A DNA stretch of 64,000 nt, from contig JAJFUB010000146.1 of the NCBI GenBank assembly GCA_021372615.1, positions 1-64,000 on the forward strand. The letters are read 5' to 3'. Source of the stretch: a bacterium (GTDB lineage Bacteria; Armatimonadota; Zipacnadia; Zipacnadales; UBA11051). Positions 6,323 to 52,076 of the stretch are shown here, piece after piece (position 1 is the stretch's first letter; every line of letters begins with the position of its first letter). The position numbers were made by a program, and so were the translations under genes. Under the pieces are notes generated by a model that saw nothing but the letters and a program-made list of their open reading frames with translations, ran no database searches and was not told where the DNA came from.

Positions 6323-6397
6323 GGCTCCGCAGGAGTGCGACCCGAGCGCCGTGGCCGGGGACCGAACGGATTGGGCGGGGTACAAGCCCCCCCTACA
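6319..6397. mobile_element. GTA...TAC-bounded palindromic element between convergent genes
   Basis: It runs from GTAGGGCTCCGCAGGAG to GGGCGGGGTACAAGCC...CCCTAC. The right half matches the elements at 23889-23963 and 51288-51370, including the preceding CGAACGG(A)TT. The left half has diverged. Its left TAG ends the small orphan gene and its right CTA ends the D-aminoacylase gene. It is non-coding and MITE- or REP-like. Confidence 0.7.
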
Positions 6398-8006
6398 GCA
6401 CAACTCCCGCGCCGGCGCCGGTGTGCTTGTCGCCGGTGACCGTCAGGGCCCCATTCACGATGACATGGGCGACGCCCACCGGGTACTGGTGCGGGTCGGC
6501 GTACGTGGCTCTGTCGGCGATGGTCTCCGGGTCGAACACGGTGATGTCGGCGGCATAGCCCTCGCGCAGCAGGCCCCGGTCCGTCAGGGCCAAGCGGCTG
6601 GCCGGCAGGGACGTACACTTGCGGATAGCCTCGGGTAGGCTCAGCAGCTTCTCTTCGCGCACGTAGTGGCCGAGGAGGCGCGGGTAGGTCCCGTACGAGC
6701 GCGGGTGCGGCCGTCCCTTGGCCAGGGCGCCGTAGGGCGCAAAGGCCAGGCCGTCGGTCGCCACGCAGCCCAGCGGGTGCGCCAGCGCCAGCTTCATGTC
6801 GTCCTCGTTCATCGAGAACAGGCAGACGCTCACATGGGCCTGCTCCTCGGCCAGCAGGTCCAGCGTCGCCTCCAGCGGGTCCTGTCGGCGCCTTTCGGCG
6901 ACCTCGCTGAGTCGCAGGCCGACCGCCCACCGGTTCGCCTCGCTGCCGACATCCGTGACGAGGATGTCCGCAAAGCTCAGCTCAAACGGGTTGTGGATGC
7001 CGGGGTCCCTCTGGGAGGCCTCGAACTCGTCGCGCAGCCGCTGGCGGCACTCCGGGTCGCGCAGGCGCCCCACCAGGGCGTCGTTCCCGCCATCGTGCAT
7101 CCACGCCGGCAGCGAGCCGGACAGGTGGCGGCTGCCGGCGGTGTACGGGTAGACATCGAAGGCGATGTCCAGCCCCTCGTCCCGCGCCTGCTCGATGCGC
7201 TCGAGGGCCTGGGGCATGTTGCCCCAACTGGCCTTGCCCGAGCACTTCAAGTGGTCAATCTGCAAGCGCAGCGGACCGTCTTCCATGGCTTCGAGGGCAA
7301 TGCCGATCATCTCTTCCAGCGCCGGCAGTTGTCGCACGCCCTCATTGCGCGTGTGGACGCTGACCTCTGCCCCGTGGGCCGCCGCTTCGCGGCACAGGCC
7401 CACCAGCTCGTCGCGCGAGGCGAAGCTGCCCAGGGCGTAGGCCAGGCCCAGGGAGATCCCCACAGCCCCGGCTGCGAAGCCCTCACGGGCCGCGGCGCGC
7501 ATGGCGTCAATCTCCGCAGCCGTCGCCGGCCGGTTGGCGAAGCCCATCGCGAAGGCCCGGAGAGCGCTCTGGCCCAGCATCGGCGCGACGTTGACCGACG
7601 TCTGGGCCTGGCGCAGCACCTCCAGGTATTCGGCGGGGGTGCGCCAGCAGAACTCGACGTCGGCCTCGATGAACGAGCAGATGGCGCGGAGCTGCGCCTC
7701 CGCGCCGGGACGGATCGGGAAGACGCCCATGCCGCACTGGCCGTTGCACTCGCTCGTCACGCCCATGTGGACTTTGCTCTCGGCGCGCGGGTTCTGCAGC
7801 AGCGTCAGGTCGGAATGCGAGTGCAGGTCAATGAAGCCCGGACAGACCACCTGGCCGGCGCAGTCGAGCTGCAGCTTCGCCTCGGCGCCGGCCAGGTCGC
7901 CTACCGCGACGACGCGGCCGCCGGTGACGCCGACATCCGCAGGTCGTCGCTGCGCCCCTGAGCCGTCAATGACGGTGCCCCCGCTCAACAGTAGATCCAG
8001 AACCAA
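6393..8006 (-). CDS. N-acyl-D-amino-acid deacylase (D-aminoacylase, amidohydrolase superfamily)
   Basis: A 537-residue zinc-dependent amidohydrolase that releases D-amino acids from N-acyl-D-amino acids, relevant to peptidoglycan or D-peptide turnover. Diagnostic parts are the HxH motif in PGFIDLHSHSDLT (about residue 63), the cysteine-rich SECNGQCGMGVFP that holds the bridging metal ligand in this family, H-containing segments VSVHTRNEG and QIDHLKCSGK, and the catalytic aspartate in CVATDGLAFAP (about residue 430). Length is typical. The TTG start at 8006 directly follows the TAG stop of the upstream kinase-like gene and uses the AAGGGAAG within that gene's end, so the two are translationally coupled. 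The stop lies in a palindromic element. Confidence 0.88.
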   Translation of the reverse strand: MVLDLLLSGGTVIDGSGAQRRPADVGVTGGRVVAVGDLAGAEAKLQLDCAGQVVCPGFIDLHSHSDLTLLQNPRAESKVHMGVTSECNGQCGMGVFPIRPGAEAQLRAICSFIEADVEFCWRTPAEYLEVLRQAQTSVNVAPMLGQSALRAFAMGFANRPATAAEIDAMRAAAREGFAAGAVGISLGLAYALGSFASRDELVGLCREAAAHGAEVSVHTRNEGVRQLPALEEMIGIALEAMEDGPLRLQIDHLKCSGKASWGNMPQALERIEQARDEGLDIAFDVYPYTAGSRHLSGSLPAWMHDGGNDALVGRLRDPECRQRLRDEFEASQRDPGIHNPFELSFADILVTDVGSEANRWAVGLRLSEVAERRRQDPLEATLDLLAEEQAHVSVCLFSMNEDDMKLALAHPLGCVATDGLAFAPYGALAKGRPHPRSYGTYPRLLGHYVREEKLLSLPEAIRKCTSLPASRLALTDRGLLREGYAADITVFDPETIADRATYADPHQYPVGVAHVIVNGALTVTGDKHTGAGAGVVL

Positions 8007-23866: not shown

Positions 23867-23888
23867 GGCGCCTCCCTGCGGGGGCATT

Positions 23889-23963
23889 GTAGGGCGGGGG
23901 CTTGTACCCCGCCCCGCGCGGCACAGAGCGAACGGTTGGGCGGGGTACAAGCCCCCGCCCTAC
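23889..23963. mobile_element. GTA...TAC double-hairpin palindromic element, best-preserved copy
   Basis: The 26-bp arms 23889-23914 and 23938-23963 are perfect reverse complements around a 23-bp spacer. Each arm itself folds (GGGCGGGG, 7-base loop, CCCCGCCC). The outer ends are GTA/TAC, which would fit a TA target duplication. It lies between two co-oriented genes. See 6319-6397, 12885-12933 and 51288-51370. Confidence 0.85.
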
Positions 23964-23971
23964 AGCACCTC

Positions 23972-35426: not shown

Positions 35427-35469
35427 GGGCGGGCGACCCGCCCCGCCTGTGGGAGCGGTCACCGACCGC
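35427..35469. repeat. Two adjacent hairpins between GATase-like and PHP genes
   Basis: GGGCGGG-CGA-CCCGCCC (35427-35443) and GCGGTC-ACC-GACCGC (35455-35469), followed by GACCCAGCG. The layout resembles the double-hairpin elements elsewhere. It lies just downstream of the GATase-like stop codon and may end or process that transcript. Confidence 0.5.
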
Positions 35470-35481
35470 GACCCAGCGCTG

Positions 35482-49466: not shown

Positions 49467-52076
49467 ATGCCCCATTCCATCAGCAATGACGCACTGACAC
49501 TGCAGTTCCGCGACGACGGCACGCTGCTGGCCGAGAACCGCCTCTCCGGCGCCACCCGTGCGTGGCGCTGGCCGGCGTTCCGGCTATCCCTGCGCGGCCA
49601 GGTCGTCAGTGCCGAGGCGTTCGAGCTGGACGGGGTCGCCGGCGCCGGCCAGGAGGTGACCGTGCGGCTGCATCACGCCCCCTCCGGGCTCGCGGCGGCA
49701 GTGCGCTACTGGCTGGCTGCGGGCGAGCCGTGGTTCCGCAAGCAGATCACACTCACCGCGCCGCCCGGCACGCCCACGCTCGACCGGCTGTGGGTGGACG
49801 TCCAGGAGGCCCCGCAGCCCGTCCGTCGCGTCGGCTATGGCCTCCGAGGCCTGGACGGAGAGGTCGAGGGACTGGCGACGTACGCCAACCAGTACGGCTG
49901 CGGCTACCCGGTGTATGCCGGCGACTGGTTCGTGGGGCTGGAGCATCCCTGCGGGTTCGCACTGCCGGCGGACGGGCAGGTCGAGCTGTACCAGCACCCC
50001 GTCTGGGAGGACGACGGCGCCCTCACGAGCTTCGCCGCCGTGTTCGGGGCCGCCGCAAGCCATGACGACGCGTCCGGGGTTTTCAGCGACTACCTGTGGC
50101 GCGTCCGCCGCCCGCGCCTCGACAAGCCCTTCACGCACATATCGGTCGGCTGGTCTTCCCGCTACCTGGGCGAACACGAGTACCTGGACACCTTCGAGGG
50201 GCGCGACGCCTTCGTCAAGGGCCTGCTCGAACTGGGGCTGCACCCGAAGGCCGTCGGCATTGACGCCGGCTGGTTCGAGCGCGCCTCGATGTACCACGGC
50301 AAGGACGATGACGAGCACGACGGCCGCCTGCTGGGGTTCACGCACATGCTGCGCGAGCACGGTCTGGACCTGGCCATCTGGGTCAGTCACAACGGCCCCG
50401 TGGGCTTTGACATGGACTGGATCGAGCAGCAGGGCTGGGAGATCGGCGAGGGGGCGTCCTCGACATACAGCTACGGGAAGTATGTCGTGATGATGCAGCC
50501 GAGCTTCGAGGAGGCGCTGACCCGGCGGCTGGAGGAGCTGGTCGGGGTCGGTGACCCCTCCCACGCCCAGATTGGGGCGGTCCACCTGAAGATGGACTGG
50601 GACAACGAGTGCGCCAGCAACGAGCACTTCGCGGATCGCTACCCGACGATTGACCACGTCCGCGAGGCGTCCACCAATGCGTTCTTCCGCATCGGCAGGC
50701 GCCTGCACGCGGCCAACCCCGAGGTGAAGCTGCGACACGGCTGGTGGCCGAGCCCGTGGTGGCTGACGTACTCGGACCATGTGTGGCTGGTGGACTCGGG
50801 CGACTGCGAATACGAGGCGTGGCCCTCGCGCACCGCCCGTGACCGCGACGCCACCCACCGCGACATGATGGTCTACATTCTCCAGCGCACGTCGGAGACG
50901 CCGGTGCCGCTGGACGCGTACGACAACCATGGCTTCGCCGACGCGCTCTGCAACTGCTTCACCACCGAGCCCCACACGTGGCTGAACACCTGCGTCCTGT
51001 CGGCCCTCCGGGGCACAACGTACATCCACTACCCGCTGACGCCCGAGGGCCTCCGCGACTGGCAGGCGCGGATGTTCCAGCAGGTGCTGGACTGGTGGGA
51101 TGCCCACGCCGACGAGCTGGGCACCCAGGGCACGCGGATCGTGCTCGGGCGGCCGTGGGAGGGGCAGATCTACGGCTACTGGCACCCGCATGACGGCGGC
51201 GGGTGGCTCATGCTGCGCAACCCTTCGGTCGAGCCGCAGGCCGTGACGCTGCCGCTGGAGGAGTGGCTGGCTGCGGACTTAGCCGCGGTAGGGCGGGGGC
51301 TTGTACCCCGCCCAGGGGCAGTCACGAGCCCCCCGGTGGACTCTGGGCGGGGTACAAGCCCCCGCCCTACAGTCCGCCAGGTATTCCCCTACCGGAAGCA
51401 CCTGGAAGCCCCCTGGGACCTCTGGCTCACTGGCCACGAAGTCGCCGTCCTACAGGTTAGCGCCGAGCCTCTGCCCGATCTCTCCCCTATCCCAGGCAGC
51501 GACCACATGCTGACGCGCACCGAGGCGGGCGTTGTGGCCTACGTGCCGGGGTCACTCCGCCCGACGGTGCATCCGGACATGCAGCTCCCGGCGCTGTGGG
51601 CCGAGACGCTGCCCGAGGGGGAGATCGAGGGGGGACGCCGCCTGCAGTGGTTTGTGGGGGTGCCGCACCGCATGGAGAGGGCCGAACTGCTCGTGACGCT
51701 GCGCGGGCCCGAGGCCGTGCTCGACGGCCTGCAACTTCGTGCCGGCACGTCGCGCTATCGCGGTGACGCCATCCGCGACTTCAGCCCCGTCACGCGCATC
51801 TTCCAGGGCAAGCGCGGCCATGGCGGAGTACGCGTCCTACCACCCCTTGGCCCCCGCGAGCGCGACGGCTATGTGATCGCCGTGCCCGATGGTGGCTACA
51901 CGGGGCTGACGGTGGAGATCACAGGCCCCCGGGCCGAGACCGTGACAGTCGAGGCGTGGCTGACGGGCTACGAGGCCCTCGCGCGCCAGGGCGAGCCGGC
52001 CAGCGAGGCCCCGGCCGCCGGGCCGCTCCTGCCGATCCACCCGTACGGCTTCCCCAGATTCCTGAAGCTGACCTAG
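49467..52076 (+). CDS. GH36-like glycoside hydrolase with an in-frame palindromic element
   Basis: An 869-residue enzyme without a signal peptide. N-terminal beta-sandwich (about residues 1-215), then a TIM barrel with HLKMDWDNEC (D377 in the K-x-D nucleophile pattern of clan GH-D alpha-galactosidases) and LVDSGDCEYEAWPS as the likely acid/base region. A C-terminal beta domain follows. Residues about 608-635 are encoded by an 83-bp palindromic element (51288-51370), giving a Gly/Arg/Pro peptide beginning VGRGLVPRP. Downstream QVFPYRKHLEAPWDLW resumes normal sequence, so the frame is preserved. GAGGG precedes the ATG. The gene abuts the LamG-DUF6259 gene and a URO-D gene. Specificity for alpha-galactosides is inferred. 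Confidence 0.78.
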   Translation: MPHSISNDALTLQFRDDGTLLAENRLSGATRAWRWPAFRLSLRGQVVSAEAFELDGVAGAGQEVTVRLHHAPSGLAAAVRYWLAAGEPWFRKQITLTAPPGTPTLDRLWVDVQEAPQPVRRVGYGLRGLDGEVEGLATYANQYGCGYPVYAGDWFVGLEHPCGFALPADGQVELYQHPVWEDDGALTSFAAVFGAAASHDDASGVFSDYLWRVRRPRLDKPFTHISVGWSSRYLGEHEYLDTFEGRDAFVKGLLELGLHPKAVGIDAGWFERASMYHGKDDDEHDGRLLGFTHMLREHGLDLAIWVSHNGPVGFDMDWIEQQGWEIGEGASSTYSYGKYVVMMQPSFEEALTRRLEELVGVGDPSHAQIGAVHLKMDWDNECASNEHFADRYPTIDHVREASTNAFFRIGRRLHAANPEVKLRHGWWPSPWWLTYSDHVWLVDSGDCEYEAWPSRTARDRDATHRDMMVYILQRTSETPVPLDAYDNHGFADALCNCFTTEPHTWLNTCVLSALRGTTYIHYPLTPEGLRDWQARMFQQVLDWWDAHADELGTQGTRIVLGRPWEGQIYGYWHPHDGGGWLMLRNPSVEPQAVTLPLEEWLAADLAAVGRGLVPRPGAVTSPPVDSGRGTSPRPTVRQVFPYRKHLEAPWDLWLTGHEVAVLQVSAEPLPDLSPIPGSDHMLTRTEAGVVAYVPGSLRPTVHPDMQLPALWAETLPEGEIEGGRRLQWFVGVPHRMERAELLVTLRGPEAVLDGLQLRAGTSRYRGDAIRDFSPVTRIFQGKRGHGGVRVLPPLGPRERDGYVIAVPDGGYTGLTVEITGPRAETVTVEAWLTGYEALARQGEPASEAPAAGPLLPIHPYGFPRFLKLT
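51288..51370. mobile_element. GTA...TAC palindromic element inside the GH36-like coding sequence
   Basis: The 26-bp arms at 51288-51313 and 51345-51370 are perfect reverse complements with a 31-bp spacer. They equal the arms of the 23889-23963 element base for base. It is read in frame without stop codons. Confidence 0.85.

Follow-up and report, generated by a model that had tools for sequence, protein, structure and literature searches.

How does a protein-coding gene come to carry a long, perfect palindrome within its reading frame? The question is raised by a 64,000-nucleotide stretch of bacterial DNA (GenBank assembly GCA_021372615.1, contig JAJFUB010000146.1, positions 1 to 64,000), called the window in the following, in which a glycosidase-like open reading frame (ORF) of 869 aa (49467..52076, + strand) contains an 83-bp element at 51288..51370 (+) that is translated in frame as residues 608–635 (VGRGLVPRPGAVTSPPVDSGRGTSPRPT, 28 aa). 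A first-pass annotation made from the letters alone had described an in-frame palindrome with perfect inverted arms of 26 bp, and this was confirmed, except that the fully complementary arms (51288–51315 and 51343–51370; 100 %) are slightly longer, at 28 nt each. Judged by its sequence, the element is a GTAG-tagged doublet of repetitive extragenic palindromes (REPs) resembling the REP doublets known as REPINs. We consider it a non-autonomous unit, most likely moved by an HUH transposase of the REP-associated tyrosine transposase (RAYT, or TnpA-REP) type, whose genic insertions survive where they keep the frame, a reading to which we assign a probability of roughly 0.87.

Comparison with homologues that are 51–56 % identical over their full length shows what the element added. 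At this place they read EWL-GYDPG-TVRQV or close variants, and the window protein reads EWLAADLAA, 28 further residues and then VRQV, a net gain of 28 aa; past residue 635 the ORF aligns with the homologues up to the C-terminus. Residues 608–635 are missing in all homologues aligned there, so that the first-pass expectations of about 28 added residues, of their absence from relatives and of an intact downstream domain all held, and on these alignments the protein appears to tolerate its palindrome. Its proposed GH36-like identity found no support, as searches of Pfam, NCBIfam and PDB sequences with the 869-aa protein, and of Pfam and PDB sequences with its nine-member family, gave no match; an AlphaFold model from a two-sequence alignment reached a confidence (pLDDT) of 37, too low for a fold search. 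The same ORF carries a second REP-derived in-frame insert at 50541..50564 (−), namely the copy GTGGGAGGGGTCACCGACCCCGAC of a different family, GTGGGAGCGGTCACCGACCGCGAC, from which it differs by two mismatches that are compensatory in the stem; its net gain of 7 aa (the VGDPSHA segment) is likewise absent in homologues.

The arms place the element in a large family, here called family 1. Exact copies of the 26-mer GTAGGGCGGGGGCTTGTACCCCGCCC stand at 51288, 51345, 23889 and 23938 of the window; none is expected (100 shuffles). Its forward copy (51288..51313, +) is predicted to form an 8-bp stem as single-stranded DNA, its inverted copy (51345..51370, −) is followed by AG, the reverse complement of CT, and the whole 83-bp element is predicted to fold into a hairpin of −44 kcal/mol. 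The copies at 23889 and 23938 form an intergenic doublet of 77 bp (23888..23964) between two same-strand genes, as had been proposed for the non-coding element at 23889–23963, and a degenerate arm with four mismatches lies at a gene end (6374..6399, −). Across the genome of this uncultured, WS1/Zipacnadia-like bacterium we counted 136 arms at up to three mismatches, against none for a reversed control, with GTAG conserved 5' of the palindromic stem. Among the 93 elements examined, 39 are + − doublets, of which 31 have a spacer of 22–24 nt; the 77-bp form is found repeatedly in the genome, and its asymmetric spacer is conserved. Intergenic copies lie between unidirectional (41), convergent (10) and divergent (2) genes, the pattern of other REPs, which we count towards REP identity. 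Some intergenic loci (e.g. L018 and L028 of G000, the genome of the window) carry a recurrent chimeric element in which a family-1 arm is paired with a GAGACCGCAAGCGGTCTC-type palindrome.

The insertion is one of many. With gene calls from a codon model that had been trained on window sequence, 31 of the 93 elements lie in frame within genes, 53 lie between genes or reach a gene end and 9 sit at contig edges, giving an intragenic share of 37 % (31/84) once the edge elements are left out as not evaluable. The genome-wide arm search proposed in the first-pass annotation thus supports its suggestion of a mobile-type palindrome that proteins appear to tolerate. Single arms make up 24 of the 31 genic copies, and doublets are commoner among intergenic elements (Fisher p 0.003). 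The tagged genes include those for TrpE, SelB, DinB, a heavy-metal P-ATPase, an HddA-like sugar kinase, the alpha subunit of a 2-oxoacid:acceptor oxidoreductase, a FabF-type synthase, an ABC ATPase, a DUF58 protein and FAD oxidoreductases. That REPs merely mark pseudogenes which happen to be still open might be suggested by two repeat insertions within one gene; however, the coding signal persists on both sides of nearly all 31 inserts, weakening only in a few short upstream segments, known domains extend through the insert in TrpE, SelB, DinB, the P-ATPase, the GHMP kinase, the ABC protein and the 2-oxoacid oxidoreductase, and several tagged genes (trpE, selB, dinB) are of housekeeping type, which makes decay very improbable.

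Homologues could be aligned on both sides of 27 intragenic sites, 22 of which gain at least four residues relative to all homologues. These 22 sites, where the frame is kept and homology resumes on both sides, together with single arms of 26 bp, below the usual short-read length, make it barely credible that unrelated repeats were joined by an error of assembly or binning, even though several copies (the nine edge elements) do stand at contig ends. Residues within 5 aa of an insert match the homologues at an identity of 0.36, those more than 30 aa away at about 0.57, showing that surviving inserts sit in variable protein stretches; these poorly conserved flanks suggest that the inserts may be located in loops.

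Which peptide an insert contributes appears to be decided largely by the dinucleotide beside it. Genic arms have CT immediately 5' of GTAG in 35 of 38 cases and intergenic arms in 69 of 93, and TnpA-REP is known to cleave at CT beside the REP (PMC8266576); of the target duplication that characterizes a classical miniature inverted-repeat transposable element, we observed only this CT/AG flank. In window genes, AG falls mostly at codon positions 2–3, which gives the frame GGVQAPALQ, and CT mostly at positions 1–2, which gives an immediate TAG stop. The 24 single copies divide into 17 GGVQAPALQ, 5 GRGTSPRPT and 2 VGRGLVPRP, with none in the other two frames; a model based on the target alone expects 10.7, 1.7 and 1.6, with 2.9 for AGYKPPPY and 7.1 for CRAGACTPP. 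For the 22 single copies in the main orientation the phases are 17/5/0, compared with 70/11/19 % predicted from AG codon phases. Most of the bias in reading phase is thus predicted by a CT/AG target together with codon usage; the Cys-containing and Tyr-containing frames are depleted beyond this. As this model was tested post hoc on 24 copies, after the frames had been seen, the frame account needs an independent genome. Pure protein selection, considered as the cause of the frame bias, was set aside, AG codon phase accounting for most of the bias and leaving a remainder.

This remainder, directed against Cys-containing and aromatic frames, and the strong hairpin of the window element would both suit a co-opted insert, which selection would maintain because its REP-derived peptide or hairpin is useful, for instance by tuning the stability of the mRNA or the interactions of the protein. 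The inserts, however, occur in unrelated proteins and at unrelated, poorly conserved places; intragenic arms diverge from the consensus as intergenic ones do (0.82 and 0.74 mismatches per 24, respectively), and of the 31 changes found in genic arms, 22 affect the protein sequence. We therefore regard co-option as unlikely and the inserts as probably neutral.

Under REP transposition, a single REP or a doublet, folded as single-stranded DNA, would be excised by the transposase and joined beside a CT dinucleotide. Insertions into genes could survive if they preserved the frame and brought in no stop. The target on the coding strand would be AG, in most cases the end of a GAG, CAG or AAG codon, so that inserts would mostly read xGGVQAPALQ; the opposite orientation, beside a CTG codon, would meet an immediate TAG stop and be lost. 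Survivors would then be found in poorly conserved stretches, which may tolerate some 4 to 28 additional residues.

Candidates for the enzyme come from relatives. Genome G024 encodes a RAYT with an HUH motif (L273) that is flanked by inverted copies of the family-1 REP, and two RAYTs about 50 % identical to it (L260 and L265, in G002 and G023) adjoin REP variants, so movement by an L273-type RAYT seems plausible. A cognate RAYT encoded in the genome of the window itself was considered and dropped, the nearest candidate being 34 % identical to L273 and unflanked by family-1 REPs. Two RAYT loci also deserve mention: one at L061 (G000:C56, around 1151–1934) has copies of a third GTAG REP family, GTAGCCGTGGGCGGCAGCCCACGG, on its flanks, and another (L308, G002:C2 14577–14766) adjoins a tandem array of a REP variant with 33-bp spacing. 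The 34 % candidate, the Y1_Tnp gene L066/L339 (G000:C146:73781–74227), lies about 10 kb past the window end.

Several observations weigh against our interpretation. The cognate RAYT was not found in the genome's own assembly, which is 96.7 % complete, and none of its seven Y1_Tnp genes is flanked by a family-1 REP. The exact inserted length and any target duplication are not fixed by an unoccupied site in a close strain. Five of the 27 aligned sites show no net length gain, implying that some copies replaced sequence instead of lengthening it. Finally, the CRAGACTPP phase, for which the CT-target model expects 7.1 single copies, has none.

Relatives of the same order (candidate division WS1, Armatimonadetes and Zipacnadia metagenome-assembled genomes) carry the same REP or variants such as GGGCGCGG...CCGCGCC that differ on both stem sides. 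Intragenic copies of the same or a related REP number 0 of 40 evaluable in four relatives (counted without the CSMAG_1176 loci, which are part of G002) and 0 of 23 in G002, compared with 31 of 84 here (31/84 vs 0/63, Fisher p 2.5e-9), although these zeros may hide a few genic copies, as the sister genes were called with a foreign codon model, trained on this genome, that marked 68–85 % of sister loci as coding and assigned fewer bases to genes. The contrast between related genomes makes the cause of the intragenic excess testable.

The second family, GTGGGAGCGGTCACCGACCGCGAC, is present in 306 copies here and in at most one copy in each of 40 relatives. Sixteen of its 61 evaluable copies are intragenic, at sites partly chosen by nearness to family-1 elements; an exact copy in the window (35449..35472, +) falls outside a called gene by the margin used. 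No Y1_Tnp gene was seen beside this family among the loci examined. A broader proposal, which we put forward tentatively and at somewhat worse than even odds, is that REPs are still entering the proteome of this lineage: two unrelated families would repeatedly enter genes, the dinucleotide target of the transposase would set the frame through codon usage, and predictable peptides, mostly GGVQAPALQ, would be supplied to unrelated proteins. Other in-frame repeats were also seen in G000 (e.g. L136, L133, L130), among them CCCGACA...TGTCGGG in selB, CTCCGGAGCGAAGCGCAGCGGAG within an amidohydrolase gene and AGTGCCGGCGTCTCGCCGGC within C8 and C148 genes.

After the Rickettsia palindromic elements (RPEs) and the intragenic REPs described in 2013, these findings provide a further setting where conserved enzymes receive extra peptides from small mobile palindromes, and they offer a simple quantitative idea for the insert frame, target dinucleotide times codon usage. 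The first-pass annotation had regarded coding palindromes as known mainly from Rickettsia and the present one as an independent case. RPEs are indeed published (PMC10969869, PMC3733652), but PMC3733652 already reports intragenic GTAG REPs in several species, so coding REPs were on record outside Rickettsia; what stands is the insertion of a mobile-type palindrome, which is a GTAG-tagged REP/REPIN and no RPE-like novelty. Our literature search returned no match for the lineage, for a high intragenic share with none in relatives, or for the codon-phase account.

Among known systems, RPEs resemble the present elements as palindromes in frame in many unrelated protein genes. The conorii genes are described as CGTC-tagged in PMC3733652, whereas the elements here are GTAG-tagged and 26–83 bp long, and the CGTC tag of RPE-4/RPE-6-type repeats was not encountered. 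REPtrons (PMC2817692, PMC8266576) share the HUH transposase gene with inverted REPs, as at L273 in the relative, and the CT adjoining the REP, and differ in that the assembly studied here yielded no cognate RAYT. The REPINs of Pseudomonas fluorescens SBW25 (Bertels and Rainey 2011, PMC3116915) likewise comprise two inverted REPs forming one long hairpin as an apparent unit, but were analysed as extragenic, whereas the intragenic survivors here are mostly single arms. Closest are the GTAG REPs of Di Nocera et al. (2013, PMC3733652), which share the GTAG tag, the palindrome and the opposite-facing dimers, lie mostly between unidirectional or convergent genes and are partly found in frame within genes, adding 20–30 aa. 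WS1/Zipacnadia is not among the hosts described in the sections consulted, and the present family is set apart by its 37 % of intragenic elements, mostly single arms, with none in relatives. Since intragenic GTAG REPs were reported in 2013, the kind of element is known, and the family described here is a strong new case of it.
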